Below are positions 11,244 through 37,165 of a DNA stretch of 64,000 nucleotides, piece by piece (the first letter of the stretch is position 1; the number at the start of each line of letters is the position of its first letter). The DNA is from Kordiimonadaceae bacterium (lineage in GTDB: Bacteria; Pseudomonadota; Alphaproteobacteria; Sphingomonadales; Kordiimonadaceae): the NCBI GenBank assembly GCA_017640725.1, contig JAEPQB010000001.1:496001-560000 (forward strand). Reading direction: 5' to 3'. The translations under genes and the position numbers were made by a program. The notes beneath the pieces are model-generated. The model was not told the origin of the DNA. It saw only the letters and a list, made by a program, of their open reading frames with translations, and searched no databases.

Positions 11244-11254
11244 GATCCGTCACC

Positions 11255-11551: not shown

Positions 11552-11566
11552 GCCGTTCTCCAGGAC

Positions 11567-12434: not shown

Positions 12435-12560
12435 AATTTCAATGAGTTGCAATAAGTTCAATTAGGCGTTTTGTAGCGAATTTTGTAACGCCACGATTTT
12501 TCCCACTCGGTGCAACATGTTGCACCGGTATTGACTGCTATCGGTTAAAAGCCGACCAAG
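12435..12560. repeat. Left-end module of islet 0 (degenerate, without tRNA remnant)
   Basis: TTTCAATGAGTT is followed by a doubled TTTTGTA-type repeat (12469-12490) and, after exactly 20 bp, by GTGCAACATGTTGCAC (12510-12525; the palindrome extends to 18 bp). The order and spacing are the same as in the three left ends at 20699, 26482 and 31523. The tRNA-Ser 3'-end repeat that opens the other three cannot be found here, which fits an older, decayed border. The rest of 12317-12791 shows no convincing gene. Confidence 0.6.
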
Positions 12561-12791
12561 CATTTGGCATTGGTTAGGCTCACATTGAAATCTACTTTTA
12601 ATCCCGGAGGATGTTCTGAGTGTTCTGAAAGCCCAGGATTTTCACTGTTGCCTTGATTTGGAAAACCCATCCCGAAGCCATCTGTGAACCAAATAGTTGT
12701 ATTATCCGTAGAACAGTTGTTCCAAGAGGGTCCTTAACGCAAGAAAAGGATTCTACTATACTAAGCATGTAATGGGGTCATGGAGGTGGGG

Positions 12792-13376
12792 ATGGCACTC
12801 AAGTATGCACTGTTGGTTTCATTATCCGAAGCTTCAAAATCTGGCTACGACGTTACAAAAGACTTTGAAGAAAACTTTGGATTTTTTTGGAGGGCCAAAT
12901 CTTCTCAAGTTTACCGCGAACTGGAGAAGCTGAAAGAGTGCGGATTCGTGCATGAGGCCGAGATGAAACACTCGGATCAACTCAACCGCGCCGTCTATGT
13001 GATTACAGACGCTGGAAGAGAAGCTCTGTTTGAGTGGTCTAAGGAGCCCTCAGAAACCGGCGTGTTGACAGATGATCTCCTTATTCAACTCCATGGCATT
13101 GAATATGTTGACCTGGATAGTGTTCGGCAGAATTTGCTGCGGCGCCGCGAGATGCACCAGGACTTATTCATCCAGCTGGAAAAAAAATATAATCAGTTGA
13201 AAAATTGCCAAGGACTTGCTGCTGCAGGGAAGATGGTTGCCTTGGACACCGCCGTGAGGTTTCAACGCGAATCAATCGCAATATGCGATAATGCTCTTAA
13301 GACTTTGATACCGGAATCTGATGGCGATGCTGCCAATGTCATCCCTCTCAATAGGGACGACCCTGATACTGATTGA
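12792..13376 (+). CDS. PadR-family transcriptional regulator (first of two)
   Basis: 194 residues from the ATG at 12792, with GGAGGTGGGG directly upstream; an ATG at 12780 is possible but would place the ribosome site inside the gene. Residues 1-90 are the PadR winged helix (ALKYALLVSLSEASKSGYDV, then WRAKSSQVYRELEKLKECGF and a wing with AVYVITDAGREAL). The C-terminal half is a helical dimerisation domain with RRREMHQDLFIQLEKKYNQL. It is a paralogue of the next gene (same length, same order of motifs). Ligand unknown; it is the first gene of islet 0. Confidence 0.88.
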   Translation: MALKYALLVSLSEASKSGYDVTKDFEENFGFFWRAKSSQVYRELEKLKECGFVHEAEMKHSDQLNRAVYVITDAGREALFEWSKEPSETGVLTDDLLIQLHGIEYVDLDSVRQNLLRRREMHQDLFIQLEKKYNQLKNCQGLAAAGKMVALDTAVRFQRESIAICDNALKTLIPESDGDAANVIPLNRDDPDTD

Positions 13377-13566
13377 TTGCATGCGATCAGTTTTCCGCAC
13401 CCAATACTCACAACTCGAATTTCAATAGAGTAGCGCAGCCAGACTAGGGTGTACGCGCTTTATGTGCCTAGCCTCGCAATAGACTGAGGCTAGCGATTTT
13501 TTAACGTATTTGGCTGGTTGTGGCATAGGCAGCAAAAGCATATTTTTACACGTCTACATATACCTC

Positions 13567-13599
13567 TTGACACATATTATATTTATGGAACATATATGT
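13567..13599 (+). promoter_or_regulatory. Candidate promoter and operator before the second PadR gene
   Basis: TTGACA (13567-13572) is a perfect -35 box; 17-18 bp downstream lies the A/T-rich ACATATATGT (13590-13599), a 10-bp palindrome that overlaps the expected -10 element. PadR proteins often bind ATGT/ACAT-type palindromes, so autoregulation is plausible. The -10 match itself is poor. Confidence 0.4.
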
Positions 13600-13654
13600 G
13601 CAAAGTTTCATATTAACTAGTGGAATATCAACTGGCCGAATATGGAGAAGTGAA

Positions 13655-14242
13655 GTGGCTCTCAAATATGCAATATTGGTTGCCCTATCAGGGGGTCCAA
13701 AGTCGGGTTACGACGTCGCGAAGCAATTTGACCAAGATATGGGCTTCTTTTGGCGCGCGCAGCATTCCCAGATTTATCGGGAGCTCGGCAAGCTCAAAAA
13801 AAACGGCCTGGTTGATGCAGAGGAAGTTCAGCAATCTGGAAAGCCTAACCGCGTTGTCTTCACCATCAACGAAAAAGGCCGCGAATCCCTATACAAATGG
13901 TCAAGGGAGCCGTCCAGATCAGCCAAGTTCAAAGATACCTTCCTGGTCCAGCTGTACGCTCTGGATTCCATAGATATGGACGCCTTTCGGCAAAACCTGC
14001 AGCGGCGGCTGGAGCTGTGTCAGGATCTGCTTTTAGAATATGAAACTAAACATCGGGCGCTGGAGCACAGTGATACCCTTGCTGACCAGGGCAAACAATT
14101 GGCACTGGATGCCGGCATACGATGGTCCCGCGAATGGATTGATTGGTGCACAGTGGCTCTCCAAAAGCTGGCGCCACAGGCGGCTGCTGACCTTACCAAC
14201 ATCGTCCCGATGAAAAATGTTGGGAAAACGTCTGATAAATAA
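13655..14242 (+). CDS. PadR-family transcriptional regulator (second of two)
   Basis: 195 residues from the GTG at 13655, chosen because GGAG precedes it and because ALKYAILVALSGGPKSGYDV then aligns residue for residue with the first PadR protein. It has the same winged-helix domain (FWRAQHSQIYRELGKLKKNG) and C-terminal helical domain (FRQNLQRRLELCQDLLLEYE). The two look like a tandem duplication that has diverged. It stands about 200 bp before the isochorismatase-type gene, so it may control the redox cluster that follows. Confidence 0.87.
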   Translation: MALKYAILVALSGGPKSGYDVAKQFDQDMGFFWRAQHSQIYRELGKLKKNGLVDAEEVQQSGKPNRVVFTINEKGRESLYKWSREPSRSAKFKDTFLVQLYALDSIDMDAFRQNLQRRLELCQDLLLEYETKHRALEHSDTLADQGKQLALDAGIRWSREWIDWCTVALQKLAPQAAADLTNIVPMKNVGKTSDK

Positions 14243-14281
14243 AGAATTTTGCTGCCAATAGGGCGGCGCCACAAAATTCTT
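14242..14281. terminator. Inverted repeat after the second PadR gene
   Basis: AAGAATTTTG (14242-14251) and CAAAATTCTT (14272-14281) form a 10-bp stem around a 20-nt GC-rich loop that starts at the stop codon of the PadR gene. There is no clear T run, so it may be a weak terminator or an operator. Confidence 0.4.
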
Positions 14282-14438
14282 CACAACAAGGATCGTGATA
14301 CTGCGCGAGCTCCCTCAAGCATCTCGCGCGACAATAGGGTTTTGAGTCCAAGTCTGAGTTGGTCACCGAACAGGTAGACCAAGAAATGGCAAGTCCATTT
14401 CCGCATGTAGATCATGGAAGACAAAGAAAGGACCAGCC

Positions 14439-15269
14439 ATGAACAAACGACTGACGCACAAAACCAAGCTTTTGCTGGGCAGCGCAATATTCCCCATCAC
14501 ATTGGCCGCGGTAATTTCAGCGGCTTCATATATGCCTTCCAACGCGCAGGATGCTTCCGAAGCTGTCACCGCGCATACACCGCCGGTCAATGACGGCCTG
14601 CCGTTGCCCGGTTTCGAAGTGGAACGGGGCACCACAGCCCTTGTGATCACTGACCCTCAAAACGACTTCCTGTCGCCGAATGGTGTTACCTGGGGTGTGG
14701 TTGGCAAGAATGTGACCGACAATCGGGTGGTCGAAAACCTCGACCTTCTGATGGAAACGGCACTTGATTCCGGCATGCCGCTTTTTATCTCCCCGCACTA
14801 CTATTATCAGCACGACCATCAGTGGAAATTTGAGGGCGCACTGGAAGCTCTCATGCACGCGATCGGCATGTTTGACCGCGCTGACGCGCTAAGCCTTGAA
14901 GGCTTTGAAGGCTCAGGCGCTGACTGGCTCGATCGGTACAAGCCTTACATCAACAGAGCAGGCACTGTGGTAACCAGCCCGCACAAGGTTTACGGGCCAG
15001 AAACAAACGACCTGGTGCTGCAACTGCGCAAAGCCGGAATATCCAAAGTGGTGCTGGCAGGCATGTCGGCAAACCTGTGCACTGAATCGCACATGCGCGA
15101 ACTGATTGAGCAAGGCTTTGAAGTCATGGTGGTGACCAATGCCACCGCCGGCGCCATCACCCCGCACTACAACGGATACGAAGCCGCTCTCACTAATTTT
15201 CGCATGATCGCGAGCGACGTGAAAAACACCCAATCCACTGTCGCCGCGATCAAAGCAGCCTTTCGCTAA
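14439..15269 (+). CDS. Exported isochorismatase-family cysteine hydrolase
   Basis: 276 residues with AAGGA upstream of the ATG. Residues 10-37 form a signal peptide (LLLGSAIFPITLAAVISAAS). The triad of the family is visible: Asp72 in ITDPQNDF, Lys183 in TSPHK and Cys214 in MSANLCTESHMRELIEQGFE. Family members hydrolyse amides, such as nicotinamide or N-carbamoyl compounds, or vinyl ethers; export suggests an extracytoplasmic substrate. It is followed 12 bp later by an SDR gene with the same CAGGAGCAC ribosome site, so they form an operon. Confidence 0.88.
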   Translation: MNKRLTHKTKLLLGSAIFPITLAAVISAASYMPSNAQDASEAVTAHTPPVNDGLPLPGFEVERGTTALVITDPQNDFLSPNGVTWGVVGKNVTDNRVVENLDLLMETALDSGMPLFISPHYYYQHDHQWKFEGALEALMHAIGMFDRADALSLEGFEGSGADWLDRYKPYINRAGTVVTSPHKVYGPETNDLVLQLRKAGISKVVLAGMSANLCTESHMRELIEQGFEVMVVTNATAGAITPHYNGYEAALTNFRMIASDVKNTQSTVAAIKAAFR

Positions 15270-15281
15270 CAGGAGCACACT

Positions 15282-16067
15282 ATGAATTCCAAATCCCCCA
15301 ATCAAAACAAACTAGGTATCATCGTTGGTGGTTCCAGCGGCATGGGACTGGCGACGGCAGAGAAGCTCAGAAACCGCGGCACTGACCTGATCCTTGTGTC
15401 ACATGACGCCGAGCAGCTTGAGCAGGCGCGCAACCATCTGGAGGCATCCGGATCCGGCGAGATGCACGTAATTACGGCGGACTTGTACAAAGAGACCGAC
15501 GTGGACCGATTGATCAGTGAATTTGGATCTGTAACAAGACCGATTTCCTATCTGCTAAATGCAGCTGGTGCCTTCAAACCCATACCATTTCTCGAATACA
15601 CCAGAAGTGATTATGACAAGTTTCTGGATATCAACAAATCCACCTTCTTCGTTACACAGCCTGTTGTAAGCAACATGAAAGAGAACGGCGGTGGTTCCAT
15701 TGTCAATATTGGTGCCATGTGGGCCAAGCAAGCTATTAAGGCAACCCCGTCGACCGCCTATTCGATGGCAAAATCGGGGCTGCATTCATTAACACAGCAT
15801 CTTGCTATGGAATTCGCAGAGTTCGGCATTCGCGTGAATGCCGTTGCGCCAGCCGTGGTCGTGACGCCGATCTACGGGGCCTTTATTGACGAGGGGAAAA
15901 TTGAAGAAACCCTCACAGATGCCTTTGATGACTTTCACCCTTTAGGACGGCTCGGTCGCCCTGAAGATGTCGCCAACACCATCGACTTTCTGCTGAGCGA
16001 AGACGCGTCGTGGGTAACAGGCGCAGTTTGGGATGTTGATGGCGGCGTGATGGCTGGCCGCAATTAG
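15282..16067 (+). CDS. Short-chain dehydrogenase/reductase
   Basis: 261 residues with a Rossmann cofactor motif GGSSGMG (16-22), LNAAG (92-96) and the active-site YSMAK (Tyr160, Lys164). The segment where the catalytic Ser usually lies reads VNIGAMWAK, so Ala appears to take its place; activity may be altered or another Ser may substitute. The C-terminal [11 protein letters not shown] is typical of NAD(P)-dependent classical SDRs. It is in an operon with the isochorismatase-like gene and the CMD protein. Substrate unknown. Confidence 0.9.
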
Positions 16068-16105
16068 GAACACATTGCACAGCACAAAATCTAGGGAACA
16101 CAATC

Positions 16106-16414
16106 ATGTATGATATGAAAGACCTGCGGAAACTGCCCGCACTGGGTGCAAAAGCATCCGCAGCCTGGGACACTTTTAAAGCTTTCGACGAGGCGGCGCT
16201 TGCCGATGGGGCAATCCCCAAAAAATACAAGGAACTGATGGCAATAGCAGTCGCCCTCACGACCCAATGCCCCTATTGCCTGGAAATTCACAAAGCTGCG
16301 GCATTTGGGGCCGGTGCAACAGAGGAAGAACTTGCAGAAGCAACTTTTGTGGCTGCGGCACTCCGTTCTGGCGGTGCAATCACCCACGGCACACAACTGA
16401 TTGCCGGTGACTGA
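16106..16414 (+). CDS. Carboxymuconolactone decarboxylase-family (AhpD-like) protein
   Basis: 102 residues, the usual size of a single-domain CMD protein. QCPYCLEIH holds Cys55, Cys58 and His62, the CxxCxxxH redox centre shared with AhpD-type peroxide-defence proteins. The C-terminus (AAALRSGGAITHG) is also typical. It probably acts as a small thiol peroxidase or reductase partner. Its place between an SDR and, further on, KatG suggests detoxification of peroxides or reactive organics. Confidence 0.88.
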   Translation: MYDMKDLRKLPALGAKASAAWDTFKAFDEAALADGAIPKKYKELMAIAVALTTQCPYCLEIHKAAAFGAGATEEELAEATFVAAALRSGGAITHGTQLIAGD

Positions 16415-16587
16415 CTTAAAGGAACGACACGATGCGTGATTTTGAAGTTTCTCTAACCAGCCAGCACTGTCGCAATATCAGCAAGACTTGCCGTCTCCCC
16501 CACTATGTCTTGCGGGTTTTAAGCGATTTCAGCCCTACCTCCATCTGGCTCTGGAAACTGCAAAAATCGCTTCAATTGTCGTTCTGG

Positions 16588-16679
16588 AAAGAGGGGGCGC
16601 ACAGGCCCGTCAAAGAAAGTCGCCTTCCCCAAAAATTGCTTTCTTTCACAGCCTGTTGGTCAGGCGTCCCCTCTTTTTT
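16588..16679 (+). terminator. Long hairpin with T-run before the secreted hydrolase gene
   Basis: AAAGAGGGG (16588-16596) pairs with CCCCTCTTT (16668-16676), and inside this CAGGC pairs with GCCTG and AAAGAAAG with CTTTCTTT. Together they give a long interrupted stem that ends in TTTTTT. It could terminate the SDR-CMD transcript or be a small structured RNA. The 310-bp gap between the CMD and hydrolase genes holds this structure and an 87-codon frame (16432-16695) that runs straight through it and is not considered a gene. Confidence 0.6.
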
Positions 16680-16724
16680 ATCACCTAATGGTTGAACAAA
16701 CAGGTTCTTATACAGGAGCAGAAA

Positions 16725-17672
16725 ATGCTTAGAGTCGTCCTACTATTTCTAACCGCCACACTGCTTTCAATTTCGCAAGTCCATGCTTCACCGTCAAAAT
16801 CTGTCAGTTATGGATATGAAACTGTTGATGGCGTGAAGGTGTTCTTCAGACAAGCGGGAGACCCGACAAAACCAACCTTGGTGCTGCTGCACGGATTCCC
16901 AAGCTCTTCACACCAATACAGGGAGTTGATCAGGCTTTTGAGTGATGAATATTATCTCATTGCACCAGATTACCCCGGTTTTGGCGCGAGTGATTTTCCT
17001 GGACCGAACGAGTATGAGTACACGTTTGACAATATCGCGCTAACGGTGAACAAATTCCTCGAACAGCGTGAAATTTCAAAATATTCACTGCTCGTCCATG
17101 ATTACGGCGCACCGGTTGGTTTTCGGATTGCCACTGCGAACCCGGAGCGCGTTCAGTCAATCATCGTTCAAAACGGCAATGCCTATGAAGAAGGCCTGAA
17201 CAAAGACACTTGGGCCCCGATCATGAAGCTCTGGGAAATTGGGCGCGGTGATGCGGAGCATGAAGCACAAATTGCGGCAGCAATATTCAGCCGGGAAGGA
17301 CTGCGCTGGCAATACACACACGGTACCCGCAACCCGGAACAAATTTTGCCCGACAACTGGATTCTGGACCACGAGCGCTTGTCGCGTCCTGGTCAGCACG
17401 AAGTGCAGATCAGCTTATTTTATGATTATCGCACCAACGTCGCCAAATACCCGGAGTGGCAGGCTTACATGCGAAGGCACCAACCGCCAGTGCTGGTTGT
17501 TTGGGCAGAAAACGATGCGTTTTTCCCTACGCCCGGTGGCGAAGCCTTCATGCGAGATGTGAAAGATGTTGATTTCAACCTGTTGAACTCAGGGCATTTT
17601 GCGCTTGAGGAAGATGCACCGCTGGTAGCCGAAAAGATTCGGTCATTCCTGCGAAAGCGCGACATCGAATAG
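16725..17672 (+). CDS. Exported alpha/beta hydrolase of the haloalkane dehalogenase/epoxide hydrolase type
   Basis: 315 residues from the ATG at 16725, with AGGAG upstream; the longer frame from 16692 lacks a ribosome site. Residues 1-21 are a signal peptide (VVLLFLTATLLSISQVHA). HGFPSSSHQYR near 56-66 is the oxyanion region. Asp126 in VHDYGAPVG replaces Ser as nucleophile, as in epoxide hydrolases and haloalkane dehalogenases. WAENDAFFP and the final GHFALEED carry the remaining triad residues. It differs clearly from the cytoplasmic dehalogenase at 37305. Confidence 0.86.
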   Translation: MLRVVLLFLTATLLSISQVHASPSKSVSYGYETVDGVKVFFRQAGDPTKPTLVLLHGFPSSSHQYRELIRLLSDEYYLIAPDYPGFGASDFPGPNEYEYTFDNIALTVNKFLEQREISKYSLLVHDYGAPVGFRIATANPERVQSIIVQNGNAYEEGLNKDTWAPIMKLWEIGRGDAEHEAQIAAAIFSREGLRWQYTHGTRNPEQILPDNWILDHERLSRPGQHEVQISLFYDYRTNVAKYPEWQAYMRRHQPPVLVVWAENDAFFPTPGGEAFMRDVKDVDFNLLNSGHFALEEDAPLVAEKIRSFLRKRDIE

Positions 17673-17745
17673 TCAAGAAAACTACCAATCAACCTGGGAA
17701 CAACCCTTAAGTCGGCCTTTCCCAAGGACTGCAATCACTGAGTAA

Positions 17746-20007
<2,262 letters not shown>

Positions 20008-20021
20008 GCCGCAAAGACATG

Positions 20022-20056
20022 GCGATGCTCGTTCCTTGTTCGAATTCGGGCATCGC
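20022..20056 (+). terminator. Hairpin after katG
   Basis: GCGATGC (20022-20028) and GCATCGC (20050-20056) form a 7-bp stem with further CG pairs inside; it lies just after the katG stop codon. There is no T run, so termination is only probable. Confidence 0.4.
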
Positions 20057-20384
20057 AAACCGTTCAATACGATCTGAAGTGATCGTGCGCCCTAAGTTAC
20101 GCATTCTCGAAGTTGAGCGTTTCCAAATGGAACCTGCACCTTCGACGGTGGCCGTGGTTTTGGCAGCTTCAAGAGGAGACGTATCTTGGGCAATTTGAAG
20201 CGGTACATGGCGGTTTTGGGTGCAATATTAGGTGCAGCCGCGGCTGATGATGTTATTGGCCTTGAACCCTCAAAACCACATCTCTCATTGTCTTCAAACA
20301 GTGTTCAACCTTGGAAGAGCAAATCCCTTCAGTTTCTTTCTCCGGATGCCAAACCCAAACAATCTATTCAGTCAGAACTATTAA

Positions 20385-20620
20385 GTTTTTCCCGATTGTC
20401 TGCTTTCAGCCAGAAGCTGACAGTTAAATGTGATATTAGCGGTAATACGAGCGATTAGCGGAGTAATTTGAGATTAGAAATCTGTCGCCATTTGCAAACT
20501 ACACTGCATGCCAAAGAAAAACTGATTGCAGCATCATTTGTAGCAGCGCGATCACTCGGTTCGACGGACACCGTTCACGATAACTTAAGTCATTGATATA
20601 TAAAAAATTTTCAAGGTAAG
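20385..20620. repeat. Right-end module of islet 0
   Basis: Starts near CTGCTTTCAGCCAGAAGC and runs to the tRNA-derived repeat. Its last 110 bp, from AACTGATTGCA onward, match 26290-26403 closely and 31340-31444 and 36980-37075 more loosely. No gene is evident in 20060-20960: a 90-codon frame at 20186 runs into this module and is not supported. Confidence 0.65.
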
Positions 20621-20637
20621 TGGCGGAGACGAAGGGA
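20621..20637. repeat. att-like copy of the tRNA-Ser 3' end (islet 0/1 border)
   Basis: TGGCGGAGACGAAGGGA is identical to the terminal 17 nt (with CCA) of the tRNA-Ser gene at 37076-37165, in the same orientation. Just beyond it CCGCCAC mirrors GTGGCGG, giving the inverted arms expected of a tyrosine-recombinase core site. Confidence 0.75.
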
Positions 20638-20790
20638 AACCCCGCCACGAAAATATTTTTCAATATTTTCAATGAGTTAAAATATGTGCAATTTCTGAAT
20701 TTGTAACAAGTTTTGTAACACAAAATTCATCTTCAACCATTGCAACATGTTGCACTAGGGTTTCAGCAATCGGCCAGAAATAGACCGAGT
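20638..20790. repeat. Left-end module of islet 1
   Basis: Contains CACGAAAATATTTTTCAAT, TTTCAATGAGTT, a doubled (T)TTGTAACA repeat (20699-20720) and, 20 bp later, TGCAACATGTTGCA (20741-20754). The same elements in the same spacing occur at 26482-26538 and 31523-31579. A minus-strand 74-codon frame here (20499-20723) is a by-product of the repeat. Confidence 0.7.
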
Positions 20791-20962
20791 ACACGAATTA
20801 GATCGCCAAACAAAGCCGTGTGATTTCCGGAAATGTCGCCGCACTGAAGCAAGAAGTTCAATTGCTCGCGCCTCGCTTATGCCTTTTTGTTGGTTGTAGA
20901 TTGCCCCATTCTCTTATTATTGTTTCACAAGTTGAACCATCTCTCGGTTGGGAAACTTGACC

Positions 20963-26124: not shown

Positions 26125-26169
26125 ATAGCACACTGTCCAGTTTACATAGCTGGGCTATTGGGTTTTAAG

Positions 26170-26403: not shown

Positions 26404-26420
26404 TGGCGGAGACGAAGGGA
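26404..26420. repeat. att-like copy of the tRNA-Ser 3' end (islet 1/2 border)
   Basis: TGGCGGAGACGAAGGGA, identical to the 3' end of the tRNA-Ser gene at 37076-37165 and in the same orientation as the other copies. Confidence 0.75.
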
Positions 26421-26570
26421 AACGCCGACACGAAAATATTTTCCAACTTTTTCAATGCGTTAACAGGTGCACAATTTCGCATTTTGTAACAAATTTTGTA
26501 ACATCAGGATTACCGCCAGTCAGTGCAACATGTTGCACTTGTATTGCAGAAAACTGGCGATACCCAGGTT
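26421..26570. repeat. Left-end module of islet 2
   Basis: TTTTGTAACA repeated twice with AA between (26482-26503), then 20 bp, then GTGCAACATGTTGCAC (26523-26538). Same layout as the other left ends. It lies just after the stop codon of the convergent SUMF1-type gene and is not a promoter for it. Confidence 0.7.
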
Positions 26571-26602
26571 TGGTAATTGAACAAACAAAGGGTTGGTGCT
26601 TT

Positions 26603-28471: not shown

Positions 28472-30141
28472 TTCACTGTCCTGAAATGCAGTAGCCGCTT
28501 GGAATTCCCGTATTTTACGTGGGCAAGCAAACTACCGTTGGAAAGAAGCTTCGCGTCTGTAAGACGACCTTCAGGCAATGCAGCCCAATAATCCTGCTGC
28601 CAAATGATTTCGTTTGTGTTCGGGTTGTATCGGGCAACATTCGCCCGAAACTGCTCGTAATCACCGCCCCCATCAACAAACAGCATAGAAGCGTCGGGCA
28701 ACACGAAAACATGTTTTAAGCCGAATCTATCGGGAATTTTGGCTTCCCTGGTTAGCTTTCCGTCTAAGCCATAGTGTAAAATCCAATTTCCGCCATCATT
28801 TGAATAAGATCTTTTCAGAAACATAACTTCATTGCCGTCTGCAGATTTTAGCAACGGGAAGTTGTCCCAAGAACCCACGTCATCAATTCCGCTGGACCAG
28901 ACTGTTTTGCCTTTTGGATCAACTCTGCTGATCACACCCATATCGCGTGCCCCACGCACCGTGTATTTTGCAAAAACTATGACATCATCTTCGCCAACAG
29001 CGATCAGTTTTTTTCCTTCATAACCTGTTTCTTTGTTTTTAGCCTTCTTCACCTTCTGCCAGGCAACTTTTCCGTTTTTGTTCATTTTTGTAATGACATA
29101 TTTTCTTTGCTTGCCCGACCTTTGATAGCCAACAAAAACCATGTTGCCTTTGTTGGTGATTGCCATGTCATGAAATTGGATGTTCTTGCTTGGCATTTCG
29201 AAGGTGCCGATCAACGTGCCGTCTTCAGACAGCTTATAAACGATGTTACCGTGGCGGTTTTTTTTCCAGGGCCCTCTATGGTAAGCAAGCACATAACTGT
29301 TCCCTGCCTTGTCTTGCTCTAGCGCGCGCACCTGAAAACGGGGCCGCGAAATTTTCACTTTTGGGTGGCGAAACTTGGTAGAGTAAACGTCTGCAACATT
29401 GAACCTGCCATCCTTTGCGCCATACTGCAGCCTACCGTTTTCAAAGGCGTATGAGAATTTTGATAGCGTTACATCCCTTCGCGTTTTGGCGTAGCTTAGA
29501 AAGTATGTTGGTGCCGCGTACAGATGATCCCTATACTCCGCCACTCCGATTGGCTGAGTAACGTCAACTGTATCGAGATACGGCACATCCAACGAGCCAA
29601 CCGAAGAGTCGGTTAAGGCTTCCAGAAACACACTAGCCTGCTTCGCCTGTCTTGTTCCTTCAAACTGCTCAATGAAGGCTCTGTACCCCTCAACGGAATT
29701 TTCCCGGTTAACATCCGGCCAGTAATAGTGCACTGCCGACAATCTGGCTGACTGAAGCCACTGCCCGTTAGGGTATTGGCTGAAATAAATATCCCAGCCG
29801 TATTTGGTTCCAACTTCTCTTGCCCTATCCAGGGCTTCATATTCTAGTTCGTAATTCACCTTATAGGCACACTGGTCATACGTAATGGTGCATTGCTTGG
29901 CTGGCTCAAGCACAAGGGGGTTTTCTTTGATTGACTTGATGCAGTTCAGCTTTTCTTCGGGGCTGCCACCCGCCATACATTGCCGAAAAAGGGTTTTGCG
30001 TTGCGGTGCGACATTTGCGTTTTCACATGTGGTTTGGGCTACTTTACAACTGTTGATGCTGTCTTGGGCTTTGACTGCAAAATTGCTCTCTATCGAAACC
30101 AACCCGCTGAAAACCAGTAGCGAAAATAGACCCGGTCTCAT
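28468..30141 (-). CDS. Exported beta-propeller-like protein
   Basis: 557 residues with a signal peptide (residues 1-25). An N-terminal helical region carries several Cys (SCKVAQTTC, QCTITYDQCAY). From about 200 on there are repeated strand patterns such as GNSYVLAYHRGP, GNMVFVGYQRSG, DDVIVFAKY and NEVMFLKRSYS, each followed by a KxDxxGKxxW-like turn, as in beta-propellers of the PQQ/kelch type. No enzyme motif is seen. It shares an operon with the SUMF1-type protein and the small Cys-rich protein upstream. Confidence 0.78.
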   Translation of the reverse strand: MRPGLFSLLVFSGLVSIESNFAVKAQDSINSCKVAQTTCENANVAPQRKTLFRQCMAGGSPEEKLNCIKSIKENPLVLEPAKQCTITYDQCAYKVNYELEYEALDRAREVGTKYGWDIYFSQYPNGQWLQSARLSAVHYYWPDVNRENSVEGYRAFIEQFEGTRQAKQASVFLEALTDSSVGSLDVPYLDTVDVTQPIGVAEYRDHLYAAPTYFLSYAKTRRDVTLSKFSYAFENGRLQYGAKDGRFNVADVYSTKFRHPKVKISRPRFQVRALEQDKAGNSYVLAYHRGPWKKNRHGNIVYKLSEDGTLIGTFEMPSKNIQFHDMAITNKGNMVFVGYQRSGKQRKYVITKMNKNGKVAWQKVKKAKNKETGYEGKKLIAVGEDDVIVFAKYTVRGARDMGVISRVDPKGKTVWSSGIDDVGSWDNFPLLKSADGNEVMFLKRSYSNDGGNWILHYGLDGKLTREAKIPDRFGLKHVFVLPDASMLFVDGGGDYEQFRANVARYNPNTNEIIWQQDYWAALPEGRLTDAKLLSNGSLLAHVKYGNSKRLLHFRTVK

Positions 30142-30179
30142 ACTACCCCCTAGTTGTTGTTCTGTTTTGCCACCAGACC

Positions 30180-31070
30180 CTAACCCCTTACGCCAGTACC
30201 GGCGTTTCTGAGTTCCTCAATAATCGGGCGGGCGCGCCGCTCGCAGGCGGCTTTGTCTTTATCTGTTGCGCATTCGTTCATGAGCGCCTCAATGAACTGG
30301 TTGATCATGGTATCAACTGCATTGCTTTTGGGATTGGGGTTTTCGCCAACACCCGCGCAGACATGTTTGGAGAATTTTTCTCGGTCAAAGGATTTGATTT
30401 GTTTTATGCCGCCGCCTTCGCCCGGCACCTCCACCCTCTCGATTTTTGTATAATCGCTGAATTTGCCGGTTATCGTCATCAGGCCGCTGCCGCGACGCAC
30501 ATAAAACTGGTTGCCCTTCACACCCATTTGCGCCGTGATCGCATTTGACCCGCAGCTGAAGGCCTGCAGGCTTTTTGAAATACTGGAAGGCGCCCTGGCT
30601 TCGTTATTTGGGGCAACAGATTCATCTTTTGGGGCAACAGACGTGCAGCCATAGCCGCCACCCGGCAGTTGCATCCCATCTTCGGTTTTGAAAACAGCAG
30701 CCCTTTTGCCACTGCCAAAGCAAGCCCCATAGCTGATGGAGCCCGCCTCTGGTACATAAGCGCTGAAGGTATCACCGGCGCGGATAACGCGCGCCTTGTC
30801 ATAGAATGTTTTACTGCGGTCTTCGCGGCAGCGGCCCAGCCATTCAGGCTCTGCATTCGGGAAGCACCAAAAAACATAGACAGGATCGGTACAGCTGTTG
30901 GTGAATTCAACCGTATCGCGGGTGTACTTCTTTTTGGCCTTCACCTCTTTTTTGGTGATACACGCCATGGCGGCATTATCGTCAAAGCCCTGCGCATGGC
31001 TTGGTGCTGCGCTGATGCCCGACAGGCAAAGCGACACCGCAACCAACAGTTTTCCTTGAACTTTTATCAT
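30180..31070 (-). CDS. Exported Cys-rich protein of unknown function
   Basis: 296 residues from the ATG at 31070, chosen because a signal peptide (LLVAVSLCLSGISAAPSHA) starts there and GTGGGGG lies upstream; the frame is open to 31133. About a dozen Cys are spread over the mature part, suggesting disulphides in the periplasm or outside. A Ser/Pro/Ala/Asn linker with SVAPKDESVAPNNEARAP sits near the middle. No known domain is recognised. It is the first gene of the three-gene operon of islet 2. Confidence 0.78.
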   Translation of the reverse strand: MIKVQGKLLVAVSLCLSGISAAPSHAQGFDDNAAMACITKKEVKAKKKYTRDTVEFTNSCTDPVYVFWCFPNAEPEWLGRCREDRSKTFYDKARVIRAGDTFSAYVPEAGSISYGACFGSGKRAAVFKTEDGMQLPGGGYGCTSVAPKDESVAPNNEARAPSSISKSLQAFSCGSNAITAQMGVKGNQFYVRRGSGLMTITGKFSDYTKIERVEVPGEGGGIKQIKSFDREKFSKHVCAGVGENPNPKSNAVDTMINQFIEALMNECATDKDKAACERRARPIIEELRNAGTGVRG

Positions 31071-31214
31071 TGGCACCCCCACCCGAAAAAAGATCTGTAT
31101 GGGAACCCTACATATAAACCAATGATTTACCAACTTAATGATGCTTCGTGGGCGTAAACTTGCTCAATAGACTTCATTCGAATTGAGCAGCTGCCGTAAG
31201 CAGTGACGAAACAT

Positions 31215-31444
31215 CCGCTTTGGGTCGTTTTCGGCCAAAAGCGGGTATGTGATTGCGATTTTCAAAAACAGGCGCAGGATCTAAGCAGATTGTCGGAATG
31301 AAAAACGTATCGTCGAGGGCAAACAGCTGCACCACCTAAATAGAACTGTTTGCAACAACAGTTGTAGCTACGCGATCAATCAGCTCGGAGGCTGCCTCTC
31401 GGCACCCATTAAGCTATTGATAAACAACGGTTTTTCAAGGTAAA
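31215..31444. repeat. Right-end module of islet 2
   Basis: Begins with CGTTTTCGGCCAAAAGCGGG and continues with TATGTGATT; it matches 36858-37075 over most of its length, with substitutions. The stretch 31134-31684 contains only this module, the att copy and the next left end. Confidence 0.65.
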
Positions 31445-31461
31445 TGGCGGAGACGAAGGGA
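31445..31461. repeat. att-like copy of the tRNA-Ser 3' end (islet 2/3 border)
   Basis: TGGCGGAGACGAAGGGA followed by AACGCCGCCAC; the GGCGG/CCGCC arms are inverted repeats around the tRNA-derived core. Confidence 0.75.
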
Positions 31462-31615
31462 AACGCCGCCACGAAAATATTATTCAATCTTTTCAATGCC
31501 TTAAACGGTATCTGCTTTCGTGTTTTGTAACAAATTTTGTAACACCATGATCATTTCCAGCCAGTGCAACATGTTGCACTTGTATTGTCGGCAATCGGCC
31601 AAAAGCGAAAGCAGC
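31462..31615. repeat. Left-end module of islet 3
   Basis: TTTTGTAACA twice with AA between (31523-31544), 20 bp, then GTGCAACATGTTGCAC (31564-31579), then TTGTATTG and CAATCGGCCAAAAGCG. Same order and spacing as the three other left ends. Confidence 0.7.
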
Positions 31616-31684
31616 TCTTCGATAACGTTCTTCATATTCATTCGAGGAACTCACGGCTACCTGTGGGGATATTGATTGTAATGC

Positions 31685-32470
31685 CTAGTGATGAATTTGG
31701 CGGTCCGCAATGAAACTGCTTACGTCATCAAGATATGAAGCGCCGACGGGCAGTGTTTTGCCATCCACTAGTTCCACTTCCGCTTTTGATTGCCGTTTTC
31801 GGCGCAACGCCCGTATTGCTGCCTTGCGAACAATATGCGACCTGTGAATTCGGATGAAGTCTTCTTTTCCGAGCTTTCTCTCGATCGCTGTCACAGTCAA
31901 GCGCAGGTGTAACACTTTTTCTGTCGTTGTGACTTCAACATAATCTCGGTCGGCACTGACATGTTGAATTTCGTTTCTAAACACCCGGACTTCTTCCGCG
32001 CCCCGCCGGAACCAGATGTCTTGATTTGAGTTGAAACCAGAATTATTGCTCTGAAGATGCCGCAAAGTCTGCTGTAGGCGGACAACTCGTTCGTCTACTG
32101 TTCGCAATCGAATTCGCTCACCAACTCTAGATAGGGCGTCTCGCAATCTCGCTTCCGTAAACGGCTTCAGCAGGTAGTCGGAAGCGCCGTGCTCATACGC
32201 TTTCACGGCGTAACTATTGAACGCAGTGATAAATATTATCTCGGGCAGATTTGACTGCTGCAATACTCGCGTGACGACTTCAAAACCATCGCCCTCAGGC
32301 ATTTCAATGTCCAGCAACACCACAGCCGGGTCGAATTTCTCTATGGCTTCTAACGCTTCGACACCACTGGATGCCTCTGCAACCAATTTAACATCATCGA
32401 TTTTTGCCAGCGAAGCTTTAAGTCTCTGCCGGGCTAACCGCTCATCATCGACCACGACAACTCTAAGCAA
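31685..32470 (-). CDS. LytTR-family response regulator
   Basis: 261 residues. Residues 1-120 are a receiver domain: VVVDDERLARQRL with the acidic pair, VVLLDIEMPEGDGFE with the phosphorylated Asp, and a Lys in YLLKPF. Residues 150-255 are the LytTR DNA-binding domain (EIQHVSADRDYVEV, FIRIHRSHIVRKAAI). The gene overlaps the sensor kinase gene by 8 bp and follows it in one operon. Its probable target is the autotransporter gene of the same islet, whose upstream region holds direct repeats 21 bp apart. Confidence 0.94.
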   Translation of the reverse strand: MLRVVVVDDERLARQRLKASLAKIDDVKLVAEASSGVEALEAIEKFDPAVVLLDIEMPEGDGFEVVTRVLQQSNLPEIIFITAFNSYAVKAYEHGASDYLLKPFTEARLRDALSRVGERIRLRTVDERVVRLQQTLRHLQSNNSGFNSNQDIWFRRGAEEVRVFRNEIQHVSADRDYVEVTTTEKVLHLRLTVTAIERKLGKEDFIRIHRSHIVRKAAIRALRRKRQSKAEVELVDGKTLPVGASYLDDVSSFIADRQIHH

Positions 32471-33536
32471 CTTTACTCTTTCTGTCCGCTATGTAGCTAT
32501 TTGGAATCTTGGCACTGACCCTCAGCCCTTTTGGCCGGCACGCCTTGATTTCCATTTTGGCGTGTGAACCGTAAATCAAATTTAGTCTGGAGCTCAAGTT
32601 ACGGTGGCCTGTACCGGCGCTCGGCTCACTTTCGCCCGAAACACCCGGTCCGTCGTCCTCAACTGTCACACGCAAACCAGAGTCACTCACGATGCAGTTA
32701 ACACTCACATTGACCGGCCTGTTCACTTTAGAGACAGCGTGCTTGATCACATTCTCTAGAAGTGGCTGGAGAAGAAACGGCGGCACCAACCAGTTTCGAG
32801 CTGCTTCATCAATGTGGGTTACAACATTCAGCCGGTCTTCGTAGCGCACCTTTTCAATCTGTAGGTATTTGTTTGCGATGGCCAATTCCTCCTCAAGGGG
32901 AATTAAATCAATCACGTCGGACTCCAGAGAAAACCTCAGAAACTCGCTTAAAAGCAAGATCGTTTTTTCTGCATTTTTTTTGTCGTCTTCTGTGACCAGC
33001 GCCGAAATTGAATTCAGTGTATTGAATAGAAAGTGCGGATTTAGCTGGTGACGCAACACCGCAAGCTGAGCATCCCGGGCCGCATTGCTTTTTTCAAGGA
33101 ACAGTCTTTGCTGCTCGCTCAACTGCTGACCAAAATGGATTGCGATAAATCCAATAAACGCAGAGCTTACGATGGGACTGGAATAGAGCACAGCAGTGTT
33201 GAACAACCAGTAGAATGGAACGCTCGGCCTGCTTGGAAATGCGGGAAAAACACTATAGGTCGATGCTGCAATCAAGGCGTGCAGCAGAAGTGTCAGAACC
33301 GCCAGGGCAAAAACAGCAGTCCACCGCATAGGCTTTTTGGACTGCAAAAAAACAAACATGAATACGCCTGCACCAACGCTAAAAACCGCCGAAACAGAGT
33401 GAATGACAAAGCGTTGCATCAGATCAGGCGGCAGTCCGCGATCCAGCACAGACAATCCCGTATAAAGAAAAAGGAACCCAAGCCAAACAGATCCGCTGAC
33501 TAGCAGAAGGGGTTTTCGAAGACTTTTGTCCACCAT
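32463..33536 (-). CDS. LytS/YehU-type sensor histidine kinase
   Basis: 357 residues. The N-terminal 150 hold about four or five membrane helices with no large external domain. The kinase core has LRHQLNPHFLFNTLNSISAL, with the phospho-acceptor His, and LQPLLENVIKHAV and EDDGPGV in the ATPase lobe, the signature of the His_kinase family paired with LytTR regulators. It overlaps the response regulator gene. The signal sensed is not visible; the membrane domain alone must detect it. Confidence 0.93.
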   Translation of the reverse strand: MVDKSLRKPLLLVSGSVWLGFLFLYTGLSVLDRGLPPDLMQRFVIHSVSAVFSVGAGVFMFVFLQSKKPMRWTAVFALAVLTLLLHALIAASTYSVFPAFPSRPSVPFYWLFNTAVLYSSPIVSSAFIGFIAIHFGQQLSEQQRLFLEKSNAARDAQLAVLRHQLNPHFLFNTLNSISALVTEDDKKNAEKTILLLSEFLRFSLESDVIDLIPLEEELAIANKYLQIEKVRYEDRLNVVTHIDEAARNWLVPPFLLQPLLENVIKHAVSKVNRPVNVSVNCIVSDSGLRVTVEDDGPGVSGESEPSAGTGHRNLSSRLNLIYGSHAKMEIKACRPKGLRVSAKIPNSYIADRKSKVA

Positions 33537-33550
33537 GAAGGAATTACTCT

Positions 33551-33610
33551 ATGTTCTTCGGCGTCATTGGTTTTGGCTTGCTGGCTTTGGCTGCCCTCGC
33601 GAGCAAATAG
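33551..33610 (+). CDS. Possible 19-residue hydrophobic peptide
   Basis: ATG at 33551 after AAGGAATTACTCT opens a frame for MFFGVIGFGLLALAALASK. It is strongly hydrophobic with a single C-terminal Lys, like a membrane-inserted micropeptide or a leader. It lies divergent from the sensor kinase gene (start at 33536) and ahead of the autotransporter gene. There is no comparison to support it, so it is a candidate only. Confidence 0.25.
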   Translation: MFFGVIGFGLLALAALASK

Positions 33611-33826
33611 TATCACGCAGGCGTGCCCTCATGCAGCGACATTATCACATTTAGTTACTGAGAAAAGATGGTGCGCCGCCTGAATTCATTGATTTCATCG
33701 CAGCAAAAGAGGGTTTTAACGCAAATCATACTGTTCTCGCGCCACAACCGCCGGATCAGTCGGTCGGGCACACAAAATTATGCATCCTGTTGCAGGGAAT
33801 CAAAGTCCTCTAGACATAGTCAGTGT

Positions 33827-33911
33827 TTGATTGGTCGACAATGGTCATGGTTTCGTCGCAAGTGCAAAGCATTAATCTGGTTTGATCGCACAAGACCATA
33901 GGTTGGTCGCA
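33827..33911 (+). promoter_or_regulatory. Four direct repeats, candidate LytTR binding sites before the autotransporter gene
   Basis: Copies end in TCG at 33835, 33856, 33886 and 33907: TTGATTGGTCGACA, ATGGTTTCGTCGCA, CTGGTTTGATCGCA and ATAGGTTGGTCGCA. The spacings are 21, 30 and 21 bp, that is whole helical turns. LytTR proteins bind direct repeats about 21 bp apart. The remaining bases of 33611-34019 hold no convincing gene; a 77-codon frame at 33668 runs through the repeats. Confidence 0.6.
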
Positions 33912-34019
33912 GGGGTTCTGGTTCTTCGTTGTTTCAAAGGGTGTTTTTGGATTTACGGGGACGGTGGGCCACCAGCTGATCCAATCGCCCCTAAGTATTG
34001 AATTGACGCGGGGGACCCT

Positions 34020-36755
34020 ATGAAAAAGAACCATTTATTGTCGTCAGCAGCAGTTGCTGCGCTGATGATTTTTCCAACTATCGCAAAAGCGCAAGAGGCG
34101 CTGCCTACAGCGCCCGAGGCACCTGTGCCGTTGACGCCAACTACAGACGGCAGCTGCATTCAGGAAAGCACCTTTGTTTGCGGGCCAGGTTTGATCAGCA
34201 CAGGTTTTGGTACTGCGGTCGCCGACAGTGAAATCCTGGTGCAAAATGGCGCGCTGCTTGAAGCGGCTGCTGGTCCTTCGATTTTCTTCCCGACCTTTGA
34301 AGTAGGAGCAATTCTTGAGGGGTTTTCAAGCGACATAACAGTCGAGCAGGGCGGACAGGTGTTTGCACCCACGGACTTCAGTTTTGCACTGGTGTCTCTC
34401 GAGTCAGAAAACAACATCAATATTGCAGGTGATTTGATATCCACTGGTCAGGTGGGCGGTGCCCTATTGTTGACCTTCGGCATCAACAACAATGTGGTGG
34501 TTGAGGAGACTGGTGTCGTCTTCTCATCGGGTGATGCAAGTCCTGCCATTGGTGCCTTTGGAAGCGGTCACAACATTTTGGTTGCTGGACGCGTACAAAG
34601 CCAAGGGGTTGAATCGACGGGGATCCTTGTTGGCGGTGGTACAGACATATCAGTATCCATCGGCGGATCCGGACAGGTGTTCTCGGAAGGTAATTTCGCC
34701 CCAGCAGTTTCAACACTTCTGAACCCATTTCAAAGCGACATTGAAATCACCAACAGTGGCCTTATTCAAAGTTTTGGGGATGTCGCCCCTGCCATAGTTT
34801 TGGCGACACCCGGCGCTAACGCCACCAATAGCGGAACTATCGCTACAAACGGTGATGGATCACCCGGAATTCTACTTGTTCAAAGTGGTCATTCTGTAAA
34901 CAACTTCGGGACTATTGTGACAACAGGATCTAACGCCGACGCAACGATTGAAGTGCTGGTGGGGCTGGCGTCTGTTGGCACGGGTACGACACCAATCAAC
35001 GTTCAACCAGCTGGCATCATTATTGGTAATGGCGGCAATACCGTCACCAACAGCGGCACGATCCAGTCGGCTACCGGACCGGGTATGCTTGTTGCGCCTG
35101 AGCTGGCAGCAATCACGAATGACACTTTCTTTGGAGCTGGAGACATTTTGCTACCAACGACAATTAACAATTCTGGATCGATCATTGGTAATTCAGTGTC
35201 TATTGACGCTAGTGCCGCACCCGGTGCCGTTATCATAAACCACTCAGGAGGTCTGCTGAGCGGTGACGTTTTTACAGGTGACGGTGACGACACGCTGAAC
35301 ATTACGGGGGGCGCGTTAAATGGCAACATCAACCTCGGAGCCGGTTTGAATGAGGTCAATATTGCTTCAGACTCCGGATTTCTGGTGGACGCGGCCCGCA
35401 GCATCGTAGGCAACACGAATTTATCACAGTCATTGGTTTTTGGCACTTCCGGGGTGCTCGGCATCACGGGTGACGTAACCATCGCGCCAGACACCAGCAT
35501 CTCGCTGTCGTTTGACGATGTGACAGCCCTAAGTTTTAGTGAAGAAATTCAACTTGTTTCATCGAGCGGAACGCTCAGCGACGGCGGCGCAATTGCAGCG
35601 GACGACAGTTTTCTCGTCAATTTCACTTTGACATCAACTGACTCAGGCTTGGCAATTACACCAACTGTTGCGAACCTCAGTGCAGTTTCGGTAGACGCCA
35701 ATGTGAATGCGTTTGGGAATGCGATCGCATCTGCCTTGAATGGCAGCGCAAATTCAGAAGCTTTTGCGGTTCATGCCAATGCACTTAACGAACTGACAAA
35801 CACCTCGCAGTTTGAAGATGCTGCAACCACCCTGTTGCCAAGTGTCAGTGCAGGCGTCACCAGAGAAATCTACGAGACACAAAATGAGGTGCTTTCCCTC
35901 ATTGAAGACCACCTGGCAATTGATCAAAACGGCAATTCAGGCCTGTGGGGTCAGGTTTTCGTGCGCAGTGCAAGCCTGGCACGCGATAATACCATAACTC
36001 TGGGCGGTTATGACGCGACGAGCTATGGCTTCGTGCTGGGGCTGGACAAACAGATCGGCAGCACATCCAGAGCTGGTCTCGCAGTTTCCTACTCGGACAT
36101 GGATTTAGACGAAATAAGCGATGCTCAGGGCTCCACTGATGTTCAAAGCTATTCGGTAAACGCATATTATGCTGTTGATAACGATGACTTATATTTTAGC
36201 GGCGCGCTTGCTTATGCGTTCAATGAAGCCGAAGCACTACGGGTAGGTCTGTTGGCAGACGATGTGACTGCTGACTATAATGTGGACCAATTCTCTGCCC
36301 GATTGAATGCCGGTTTACCCCGAACATTAGCGAGTGGGTTGGAAGTAACGCCGTTTGCAAGCCTCCAGTATGCAACCCAAAGCGTTGAAGACTTCCGGGA
36401 AACCGGCGGTTTGGCCTTTTCTGTCAACAATGAAGGCGTCGATTATTTTGAAGCGGGTGTGGGTGTCAAACTGGCTCACGAATATGACAGTGGAAGCGGT
36501 TTTGTCCGACCCGAAGTATCAGTTGGGTATTTTTACGACTTCATTGGCGACCCTCGTCGGCTTTCGGGGAGTTTCGCGGGCAGCAACCAGTTGAACCTAC
36601 TTGGCGCTGACCCCAGTCAAACCAGTTTTGAAATTGACGCGAACCTCAATTTCTATGGCGAAGGGAACGTGACATTTGCTGTCGGGTATGACGGTGAATT
36701 CCGGTCCGGCTACAACAGTCATAGTGGCACTGCCCGTCTACGAGTGAGGTTTTAA
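34020..36755 (+). CDS. Autotransporter (type V secreted adhesin-like protein)
   Basis: 911 residues with a signal peptide (residues 1-25, ending IAKAQ). The passenger (about 26-640) is rich in Gly, Ser, Thr and Asn with repeated short units such as ITNSGLIQSFGDVAPAI, ATNSGTIATNGDGSPGI and VTNSGTIQSATGPGM, the pattern of a beta-helix. From about 643 (SGLWGQVFVRSASLARD) to the C-terminal RLRVRF lies the 12-strand autotransporter barrel. The terminal aromatic residue fits recognition by the Bam complex. It is the cargo gene of islet 3, probably controlled by the neighbouring LytS/LytTR pair. Confidence 0.93.
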   Translation: MKKNHLLSSAAVAALMIFPTIAKAQEALPTAPEAPVPLTPTTDGSCIQESTFVCGPGLISTGFGTAVADSEILVQNGALLEAAAGPSIFFPTFEVGAILEGFSSDITVEQGGQVFAPTDFSFALVSLESENNINIAGDLISTGQVGGALLLTFGINNNVVVEETGVVFSSGDASPAIGAFGSGHNILVAGRVQSQGVESTGILVGGGTDISVSIGGSGQVFSEGNFAPAVSTLLNPFQSDIEITNSGLIQSFGDVAPAIVLATPGANATNSGTIATNGDGSPGILLVQSGHSVNNFGTIVTTGSNADATIEVLVGLASVGTGTTPINVQPAGIIIGNGGNTVTNSGTIQSATGPGMLVAPELAAITNDTFFGAGDILLPTTINNSGSIIGNSVSIDASAAPGAVIINHSGGLLSGDVFTGDGDDTLNITGGALNGNINLGAGLNEVNIASDSGFLVDAARSIVGNTNLSQSLVFGTSGVLGITGDVTIAPDTSISLSFDDVTALSFSEEIQLVSSSGTLSDGGAIAADDSFLVNFTLTSTDSGLAITPTVANLSAVSVDANVNAFGNAIASALNGSANSEAFAVHANALNELTNTSQFEDAATTLLPSVSAGVTREIYETQNEVLSLIEDHLAIDQNGNSGLWGQVFVRSASLARDNTITLGGYDATSYGFVLGLDKQIGSTSRAGLAVSYSDMDLDEISDAQGSTDVQSYSVNAYYAVDNDDLYFSGALAYAFNEAEALRVGLLADDVTADYNVDQFSARLNAGLPRTLASGLEVTPFASLQYATQSVEDFRETGGLAFSVNNEGVDYFEAGVGVKLAHEYDSGSGFVRPEVSVGYFYDFIGDPRRLSGSFAGSNQLNLLGADPSQTSFEIDANLNFYGEGNVTFAVGYDGEFRSGYNSHSGTARLRVRF

Positions 36756-36783
36756 ACTAGCCGAAACTCCGGCAAACATTCGG

Positions 36784-36805
36784 TCGGCGGCTTTCGAGCC
36801 GCCGA
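36784..36805 (+). terminator. Hairpin terminator after the autotransporter gene
   Basis: TCGGCGGCT (36784-36792), loop TTCG, AGCCGCCGA (36797-36805): a 9-bp GC-rich stem with a stable UUCG loop, 28 bp after the stop codon. There is no T run behind it. Confidence 0.6.
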
Positions 36806-36857
36806 GTTAATAGTACACCCTCAAGGGTGACGCAGCGTGTTTGGACTAGTTTAGCCA

Positions 36858-37075
36858 GACTGCTTTTGGCCAAAAGCGGACATGTGATTAGAATCTTGTG
36901 AACAGTCGCAGAATCTAACCAAAGCGTCGGAAGAAAGAACCTTTGATGAGGGCAATTAACTACATCACCTAAACATAACTGATTGCAACATCATTTGTAA
37001 CTGGGCGATTGATCAGCTCAGTGGCCACCGCTTGGGCGAAGATAAGTCATTGAAATATATACATTTTTAGGCAAA
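36858..37075. repeat. Right-end module of islet 3, next to the intact tRNA-Ser
   Basis: Contains the perfect 16-bp palindrome GCTTTTGGCCAAAAGC (36862-36877) followed by GGACATGTGATT, and ends at the tRNA 3' terminus. It is homologous to the other three right ends. No gene is seen between the autotransporter and the tRNA. Confidence 0.65.
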
Positions 37076-37165
37076 TGGCGGAGACGAAGGGATTCGAACC
37101 CTCGATACCGTTGCCAGTATACTCCCTTAGCAGGGGAGCGCTTTCGACCACTCAGCCACGTCTCC
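37076..37165 (-). tRNA. tRNA-Ser (anticodon GCU)
   Basis: On the minus strand the gene begins GGAGACGTGGCTGAGTGG and ends TTCGAATCC, CTTCGTCTCC, G, CCA, so the acceptor stem is GGAGACG/CGTCTCC and CCA is encoded. The anticodon stem CTCCC/GGGAG surrounds the loop CTGCTAA with anticodon GCT, and the long variable arm is that of a class II tRNA. Its 3' 17 nt recur at 20621, 26404 and 31445, marking it as the insertion point of the islets. Confidence 0.95.

Follow-up and report, generated by a model that had tools for sequence, protein, structure and literature searches.

Tandem islands without an integrase are, in general terms, already published, as the passages concerned of three sources indicate (PMC3146451, PMC5704250, PMC10872708). 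The ssrA islands of Dehalococcoides lie in tandem behind an RNA gene with 20-bp copies of its 3' end between them, and 15 of these islands are described as having no integration module (PMC3146451). Cis-mobilizable elements (CIMEs) related to ICESt1 hold no integration or transfer genes, keep both attL and attR and occur in tandem at one site (PMC5704250). At the additive island fGI-2 of Methylopumilus, situated at a tRNA-Lys gene, the last 20 nt of the tRNA gene recur and gene content is variable, and tycheposons are described in the same source as tRNA-linked cargo elements of aquatic bacteria that hold a tyrosine recombinase inside the element (PMC10872708). The tandems of the Islander database are successive islands bounded by tRNA gene fragments (PMC4383910).

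The locus analysed here lies within a window of 64,000 nucleotides, the whole stretch of Kordiimonadaceae DNA that was examined, and consists of four units behind a tRNA-Ser(GCU) gene (Table 1). It resembles the Dehalococcoides islands in the tandem stacking of module-less members at the end of an RNA gene and differs from them in that, as described, those islands have a serine recombinase module and a tmRNA target, and 16 others carry the module (PMC3146451). Like CIMEs, the units are tandem, integrase-free and keep their att ends; however, CIMEs are presented as ICEs or IMEs that have decayed and lie in tandem with an element possessing an integrase (PMC5704250), whereas the members of the array hold no tyrosine integrase and no recognised decayed mobility gene. 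Repeated tRNA ends and variable cargo in environmental bacteria are shared with fGI-2, for which arm sites or a cognate-integrase test are not described in the passages concerned; with tycheposons the units share the tRNA-linked cargo but, giving no PF00589 match, not the internal tyrosine recombinase (PMC10872708). Fragments of the tRNA bound successive units here as in the Islander tandems, and an array of this type would not be listed as a tandem by Islander because that database, by its description, needs an integrase and a fragment for each island (PMC4383910). Wholly integrase-free arrays with conserved arms are a variant of known tandem islands; less usual are the lack of a tyrosine integrase both here and in the array of the congener G015, within the sequence read, and the persistence of arm-like sites at the ends of units whose interiors differ. 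No exact precedent was found in the open-access literature, which counts as weak evidence. Judged from the sequence, the array is probably a series of non-autonomous cargo islets with attP-type ends, which a tyrosine integrase would have stacked here in trans.

Table 1. Features of the array, listed from the tRNA gene outwards; arm modules and the integration target are putative assignments.
Feature	Coordinates	Strand	Basis
tRNA-Ser(GCU), putative integration target (attB)	37076..37165	-	ARAGORN, complete tRNA gene
Core copy within tRNA 3' end, TGGCGGAGACGAAGGGA	37076..37092	+	exact match
Unit 1 (5.6 kb)	31445..37075	.	repeat spacing, Pfam
Proximal arm module, unit 1 (type B): TTGCAACATCATTTGTAAC and TAAGTCATTGA	36864..37075	+	alignment, repeat
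Autotransporter, 911 aa (unit 1)	34020..36755	+	Pfam PF03797
Sensor histidine kinase (unit 1)	32463..33536	-	Pfam PF06580
LytTR response regulator (unit 1)	31685..32470	-	Pfam PF00072, PF04397
Distal arm module, unit 1: TTTCAATG box, TGTAACAAATTTTGTAAC, GTGCAACATGTTGCAC	31462..31579	+	alignment, pattern
Core copy separating units 1 and 2	31445..31461	+	exact match
Unit 2 (5.0 kb), three minus-strand genes	26404..31444	.	repeat spacing, Pfam
Proximal arm module, unit 2 (type B), box = TAAGCTATTGA	31229..31444	+	alignment, repeat
317-aa protein, no Pfam match (unit 2)	30180..31133	-	Pfam scan
557-aa protein, no Pfam match (unit 2)	28468..30141	-	Pfam scan
622-aa protein, FGE-sulfatase domain (unit 2)	26603..28471	-	Pfam PF03781
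Distal arm module, unit 2	26421..26538	+	alignment, pattern
Core copy separating units 2 and 3	26404..26420	+	exact match
Unit 3 (5.8 kb), two plus-strand genes	20621..26403	.	repeat spacing, Pfam
Proximal arm module, unit 3 (type A)	26246..26403	+	alignment
1123-aa protein, Sel1-like and beta-helix-like stretches, both below the Pfam cut-off (unit 3)	22753..26124	+	
606-aa protein, no Pfam match (unit 3)	20948..22768	+	Pfam scan
Distal arm module, unit 3; palindrome TGCAACATGTTGCA, flanking base on one side differs	20638..20755	+	alignment, pattern
Core copy separating units 3 and 4	20621..20637	+	exact match
Unit 4 (8.2 kb), outer core copy absent	12437..20620	.	repeats, Pfam
Proximal arm module, unit 4 (type A)	20463..20620	+	alignment
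Catalase-peroxidase, KatG type (unit 4)	17749..20007	+	TIGR00198, 1167.6 bits
Alpha/beta hydrolase (unit 4)	16692..17672	+	Pfam PF00561
Short-chain dehydrogenase, SDR (unit 4)	15282..16067	+	Pfam PF13561
Isochorismatase-domain hydrolase (unit 4)	14439..15269	+	Pfam PF00857
Second PadR-family regulator (unit 4)	13598..14242	+	Pfam PF03551
PadR-family regulator (unit 4)	12780..13376	+	Pfam PF03551
Distal arm module, unit 4, outer edge of array; first repeat TGTAGC	12437..12533	+	alignment

The 17-nt 3' end of the tRNA gene, TGGCGGAGACGAAGGGA, recurs exactly and in direct orientation at 20621, 26404 and 31445, as the first-pass annotation had noticed, and besides the tRNA itself (37076) these are its only occurrences in the whole 4.04-Mb genome when up to one mismatch is allowed. 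By chance 0.17 matches were expected (up to three mismatches, shuffled window), and none of 100 shuffles reached four. The start-to-start spacings of 5783, 5041 and 5631 nt bear out the head-to-tail units of about 5.8, 5.0 and 5.6 kb given in that annotation, and, as in elements of tyrosine integrases, the core equals the tRNA 3' end and the tRNA is restored. The fourth, 8-kb unit placed beyond them was recovered as 8.2 kb closed by distal arms; however, no core copy precedes 12437, although the distal module is present. The conserved left and right ends ascribed to every unit therefore hold for the modules, but the outer end of unit 4 has no core.

Read away from the tRNA, every unit opens with a proximal module and closes with a distal module. 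Six ends of each kind were aligned, four from the array and two from G015. A TAAGTCATTGA box lies near the core in five of the six proximal ends, including those of G015, and unit 2 has TAAGCTATTGA; further in, a TTGCA-N7-TTGT pair is found in all four proximal ends of the array and is not clear in the two of G015. The proximal modules of the array fall into type A (units 3 and 4) and type B (units 1 and 2). In the distal alignment (118 columns, 51 of them site columns), the TTTCAATG box is exact in the four ends of the array and does not appear in the aligned columns of the two G015 ends. Two TGTAAC repeats 12 nt apart are present in five of six ends, the exception being the TGTAGC of unit 4, and the palindrome TGCAACATGTTGCA in all six, extended to GTGCAACATGTTGCAC in five. 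Identity over all pairs is 97.9% in the palindrome and 82.7% in the repeat block, against 49.6% in the columns between the sites; the 45 columns further out reach 38.3%. The site columns contain 36 of the 41 invariant columns (hypergeometric 3e-13), a figure that is partly circular because the site borders were picked from the same alignment; the repeat symmetry and the palindromic symmetry of the distal sites are free of that circularity. Candidate arm-type repeats, recognised at the sequence level, lie on both sides of the core, and both ends of units 1 to 3 combine a core copy with arms, corresponding to the retained attL and attR of CIMEs.

Whole junctions are also similar, with 82% identity over 342 nt between 20430-20769 and 26212-26552 and 77-78% for the third junction. 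Growth of the array or exchange of its cargo by homologous recombination between these similar 100-300-bp ends, which would then dispense with a site-specific recombinase, might explain why proximal types A and B occur in neighbouring pairs and would draw on the 83% identity of the 300-nt stretches round 20621 and 26404. However, the identities of the ends range from 67 to 83%, which is low for efficient homologous exchange, and the core stays exact between variable neighbours and follows the local tRNA in G015, making this explanation improbable.

The interiors of the four units are unrelated to one another, and their G+C content is 0.466-0.504 compared with 0.51 and 0.532 in the flanks, the difference being slight for unit 4. 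The content of each unit had been described as a cargo operon only, which does not apply to units 1 and 4, with more than one operon each; the autotransporter gene of unit 1 runs opposite to the two-component pair, and unit 4 also holds small frames besides its named genes. The two PadR regulators of unit 4 (12780-14242) are adjacent and 47-51% identical over the compared stretches. A homologue of the 606-aa protein of unit 3 was absent from the 245 other genomes searched, a PDB sequence search with two cargo proteins gave no match, and PADLOC returned one weak match among 10 proteins, namely the response regulator of unit 1. Some cargo proteins, the 557-aa protein included, have N-terminal stretches resembling signal peptides (by eye).

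Sixteen open reading frames of the array were scanned with Pfam, and none matched integrase, relaxase or transposase families, nor was any remnant of an integrase or transfer gene recognised among them. The frame at 20186-20458 gave no Pfam match, that at 16106-16414 was covered by PHROGs, and no excisionase was recognised by eye among the small intergenic frames of the array. A six-frame search of the whole window for the tyrosine integrase domain (PF00589) returned zero matches. On these searches the array holds no integrase, relaxase or transposase, as had been claimed, and no integration or transfer genes, as in CIMEs; the units do not encode their own integrase, as a tyrosine-integrase element does, and the integrase-bearing neighbour that CIMEs have at the same site is absent from the window. 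The accompanying claim that there is no phage gene has to be qualified, as three of the 10 proteins given to PHROGs, all from units 2 and 3, match phage-protein families. These matches, to a beta-propeller repeat and virion structural families (the 557-aa protein, weakly), a 'kinase' family (the 622-aa protein) and a family of unknown function (the 1123-aa protein), we read as shared domains rather than phage genes.

These searches bear on the scenario published for cis-mobilizable elements (PMC5704250), by which the units would have arrived as full elements and later lost, by deletion, an integrase next to one end. Integrases do adjoin tRNA-Ser(GCU) elsewhere in the genus, in G018 and G008, but such decay would have had to remove the gene from all four units and from the G015 stretches on contigs C13 and C140, none of which has a PF00589 match, and to spare no remnant of an integrase or transfer gene recognisable in the Pfam scans. 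Moreover, the nearest stop codon in unit 2 lies about 200 nt from the core, and the intervening DNA, about half identical, is less conserved than the arm-like sites. Decay is therefore rather unlikely.

Comparison genomes were taken one per species. Among 59 genomes, five matched a junction query, namely the genome itself, G015, and three over the tRNA end only. In G015 the same distal arms occur on C13 and C140, behind its own tRNA-Ser(GCU) and with different cargo, and the core follows the tRNA variant of that genome (C13:48684, within the tRNA; C13:64997; C140:8393, with one change). The two cores on C13 set the first unit at about 16.3 kb, and its genes look like a polysaccharide-degradation cluster, the names being judged from translations. 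The number of units in G015 is at least two, C13 and C140 both ending beyond these unit boundaries. None of the five PF00589 matches of G015 is on C13 or C140; all are on other contigs.

The sequence downstream of tRNA-Ser(GCU) was read in 13 congeners over a maximum of about 20 kb, or less where a contig stopped earlier (G016, about 11 kb; G014, 5 kb), with G002, G003, G006, G008 and G009 outside this reading. A further core copy (up to two substitutions) was found in G015 only and in none of the 12 others, and in G004, G010, G011 and G014 a terminator-like sequence stands straight after the tRNA (by eye). When the window ORFs were compared with the fetched tRNA loci using tblastn, the cargo ORFs had no close match except to themselves, the best others being the SDR and the hydrolase at 28-33%.

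The TGTAAC repeat pair TGTAACNNNTTNTGTAAC was searched for in the 19 genomes of the genus and occurs in the arrays of the genome itself and of G015, plus two other places. These two, one inside an open frame on C8 of the same genome and one in G005, were dropped as chance matches; a reversed control pattern also gave one match, in the same genome. The repeats could in principle have a regulatory or structural role at the tRNA locus and have been inherited vertically, without recording any insertion, and the palindrome alone could serve as an operator; but with the pair confined in the genus to two arrays and these two places, and the cargo ORFs without close matches at the fetched tRNA loci, this is very improbable and largely refuted by the genus comparison.

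Two other congeners carry features of their own at this tRNA. In G007 (L101, 19560-19620) TGTGGTACA-type repeats lie just downstream of tRNA-Ser(GCU), with PF00589 absent within 150 kb, and are perhaps another integrase-less remnant. In G018 (L103, 18281-19309) an integrase lies just downstream of the same tRNA, and the genes near it look by eye like a restriction-modification system.

Wider databases were scanned with the arm pattern. In 289 genomes of the class, a sample that did not include G015, only the genome itself was returned, and 84,980 species genomes gave four stretches, two of them on C140 and C13 of G015. The other two, from Dehalococcoidia UBA1162 and Desulfobulbaceae UBA2273, were set aside as unrelated, since the stretch examined showed neither a tRNA nor a comparable layout. 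Viral contigs gave zero matches to the arm pattern and eight to a looser one. Two of the eight (L185 and L188) have many TGTAAC repeats, which were taken by judgement as replication-type repeats, with no integrase recognised by eye among their ORFs of at least 90 aa; in the other six the layout was absent (by eye). The TTGCAACATCATTTGTAAC sequence was found in three viral contigs in a context that is not similar, and blastn of one junction against plasmids and phages gave no match.

The cognate integrase was sought among the 96 PF00589 matches in the 19 genomes of the genus. Thirty-five were put aside as XerC/XerD-like by score, a matter of judgement, leaving 61, and the surroundings of 45 of these were read, the other 16 being mostly frames of about 200 aa and the weak matches close to them. 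In the sequence read round the 45, no two TGYAAC lie within 12 nt of one another. The genome itself has five PF00589 matches, two of which were judged from score and size to be XerC/XerD. Of the other three, the integrase adjoining tRNA-Arg has GTGTGACC repeats, a second adjoins tRNA-Val, and the third (L113; C7, 6535-7848) is a candidate that nothing pairs with the array. This last has no adjoining tRNA, the nearest being a tRNA-Met about 6 kb away, and its attachment site was not found; like the one at tRNA-Arg it carries the arm-binding domain PF12167, and it shares 61.6% identity over 380 aa with an integrase of G010 beside a tRNA-Ala that is followed by GGACCA-type repeats. The search for the end modules in this and related genomes, proposed in the first-pass annotation, yielded the distal modules of G015 and no full-size integrase-bearing element with these arms.

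The layout itself is found elsewhere. Integrase-bearing elements at tRNA-Arg (L111, L126, L135) have the tRNA end, TCAATGACTTA and then arm-like repeats, although the arm sequences differ. A tRNA-Ser-type end followed by TCAATGACTTA occurs in three of 396 genomes of the order (three sites in the genome itself, two in G015 and one in G025) and in 22 viral contigs, at least four of which (L165, L168, L182, L184) were judged to hold tRNA ends; ARAGORN, run on three of those four, found a whole tRNA only in L182. TCAATGACTTA stands shortly after the tRNA 3' ends at these integrase elements and in these viral contigs, and it may be a general box of this kind of integrase. Since the layout recurs at integrase-bearing elements, the design is that of a known integrase kind.

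Similar end signals together with no recombinase gene of their own suggest that an enzyme with its gene at some other place inserted the units singly, one after another. Each unit would be a non-autonomous integrative element in which two recombination modules, of roughly 100-220 bp each, flank a short cargo block, and both modules together would form an attP of the usual tyrosine-integrase design. Its core would be the 17 nt identical to the tRNA-Ser(GCU) 3' end, with a TCAATGAnTTA-like box on either side, and its outer arm-like sites, built on TGYAAC, would include a palindrome of 14-16 bp and a pair of direct repeats 12 nt apart. A tyrosine integrase supplied in trans would recombine the circular form with the tRNA 3' end, and the inserted element would restore the tRNA while adding one more core copy, which would keep the same place open to a further element; repeated insertion would give the head-to-tail array. 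Site-specific stacking at the tRNA is well supported because the cores are exact, the arm-like sites conserved, the cargo unseen at the loci of relatives and the arrangement paralleled in G015. That an enzyme from elsewhere moved the units is the best inference; of the earlier proposal of non-autonomous islets, the serial stacking stands, while for the mover no integrase with matching arms was found in the searches above, and neither an excised circle nor an empty site was seen. Beyond the stacking, we infer the kind of integrase, its action in trans, the circular intermediate, the order in which the units arrived and their transfer between cells. A broader idea, offered tentatively, is that there may be a standing class of integrase-free cassettes whose sole mobility determinant is the pair of attP arms, with the tRNA 3' end serving in the manner of an integron platform at which each species of the clade might collect its own set of cargo modules, for different traits, stacked by an integrase encoded outside every cassette.

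Should the ends function in trans, they would show how cargo spreads on hardly any mobility DNA of its own, and the concrete question becomes which integrase recognises the palindrome and the TGTAAC/TGCAAC arms. Finders that require an integrase for each island, for example Islander as described, would miss such arrays (PMC4383910), and the arms provide a search key for further integrase-free islets.

On the tRNA side of the locus, gene content is conserved among the congeners compared. On the other side, similarity to G005 ends at 12344, just outside unit 4; the left-flank genes are on contigs other than that of the tRNA in G005 and G018, and in G013 a left-flank gene, matched by a 44-aa piece, lies about 70 kb from the tRNA. 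The left flank (6442-12121) has a minus-strand cluster in which a RebB-like ('killing trait') gene (11255-11551) neighbours a sigma-54 activator, and this cluster is likewise present in G005 and G018, on contigs that differ from the tRNA contig.
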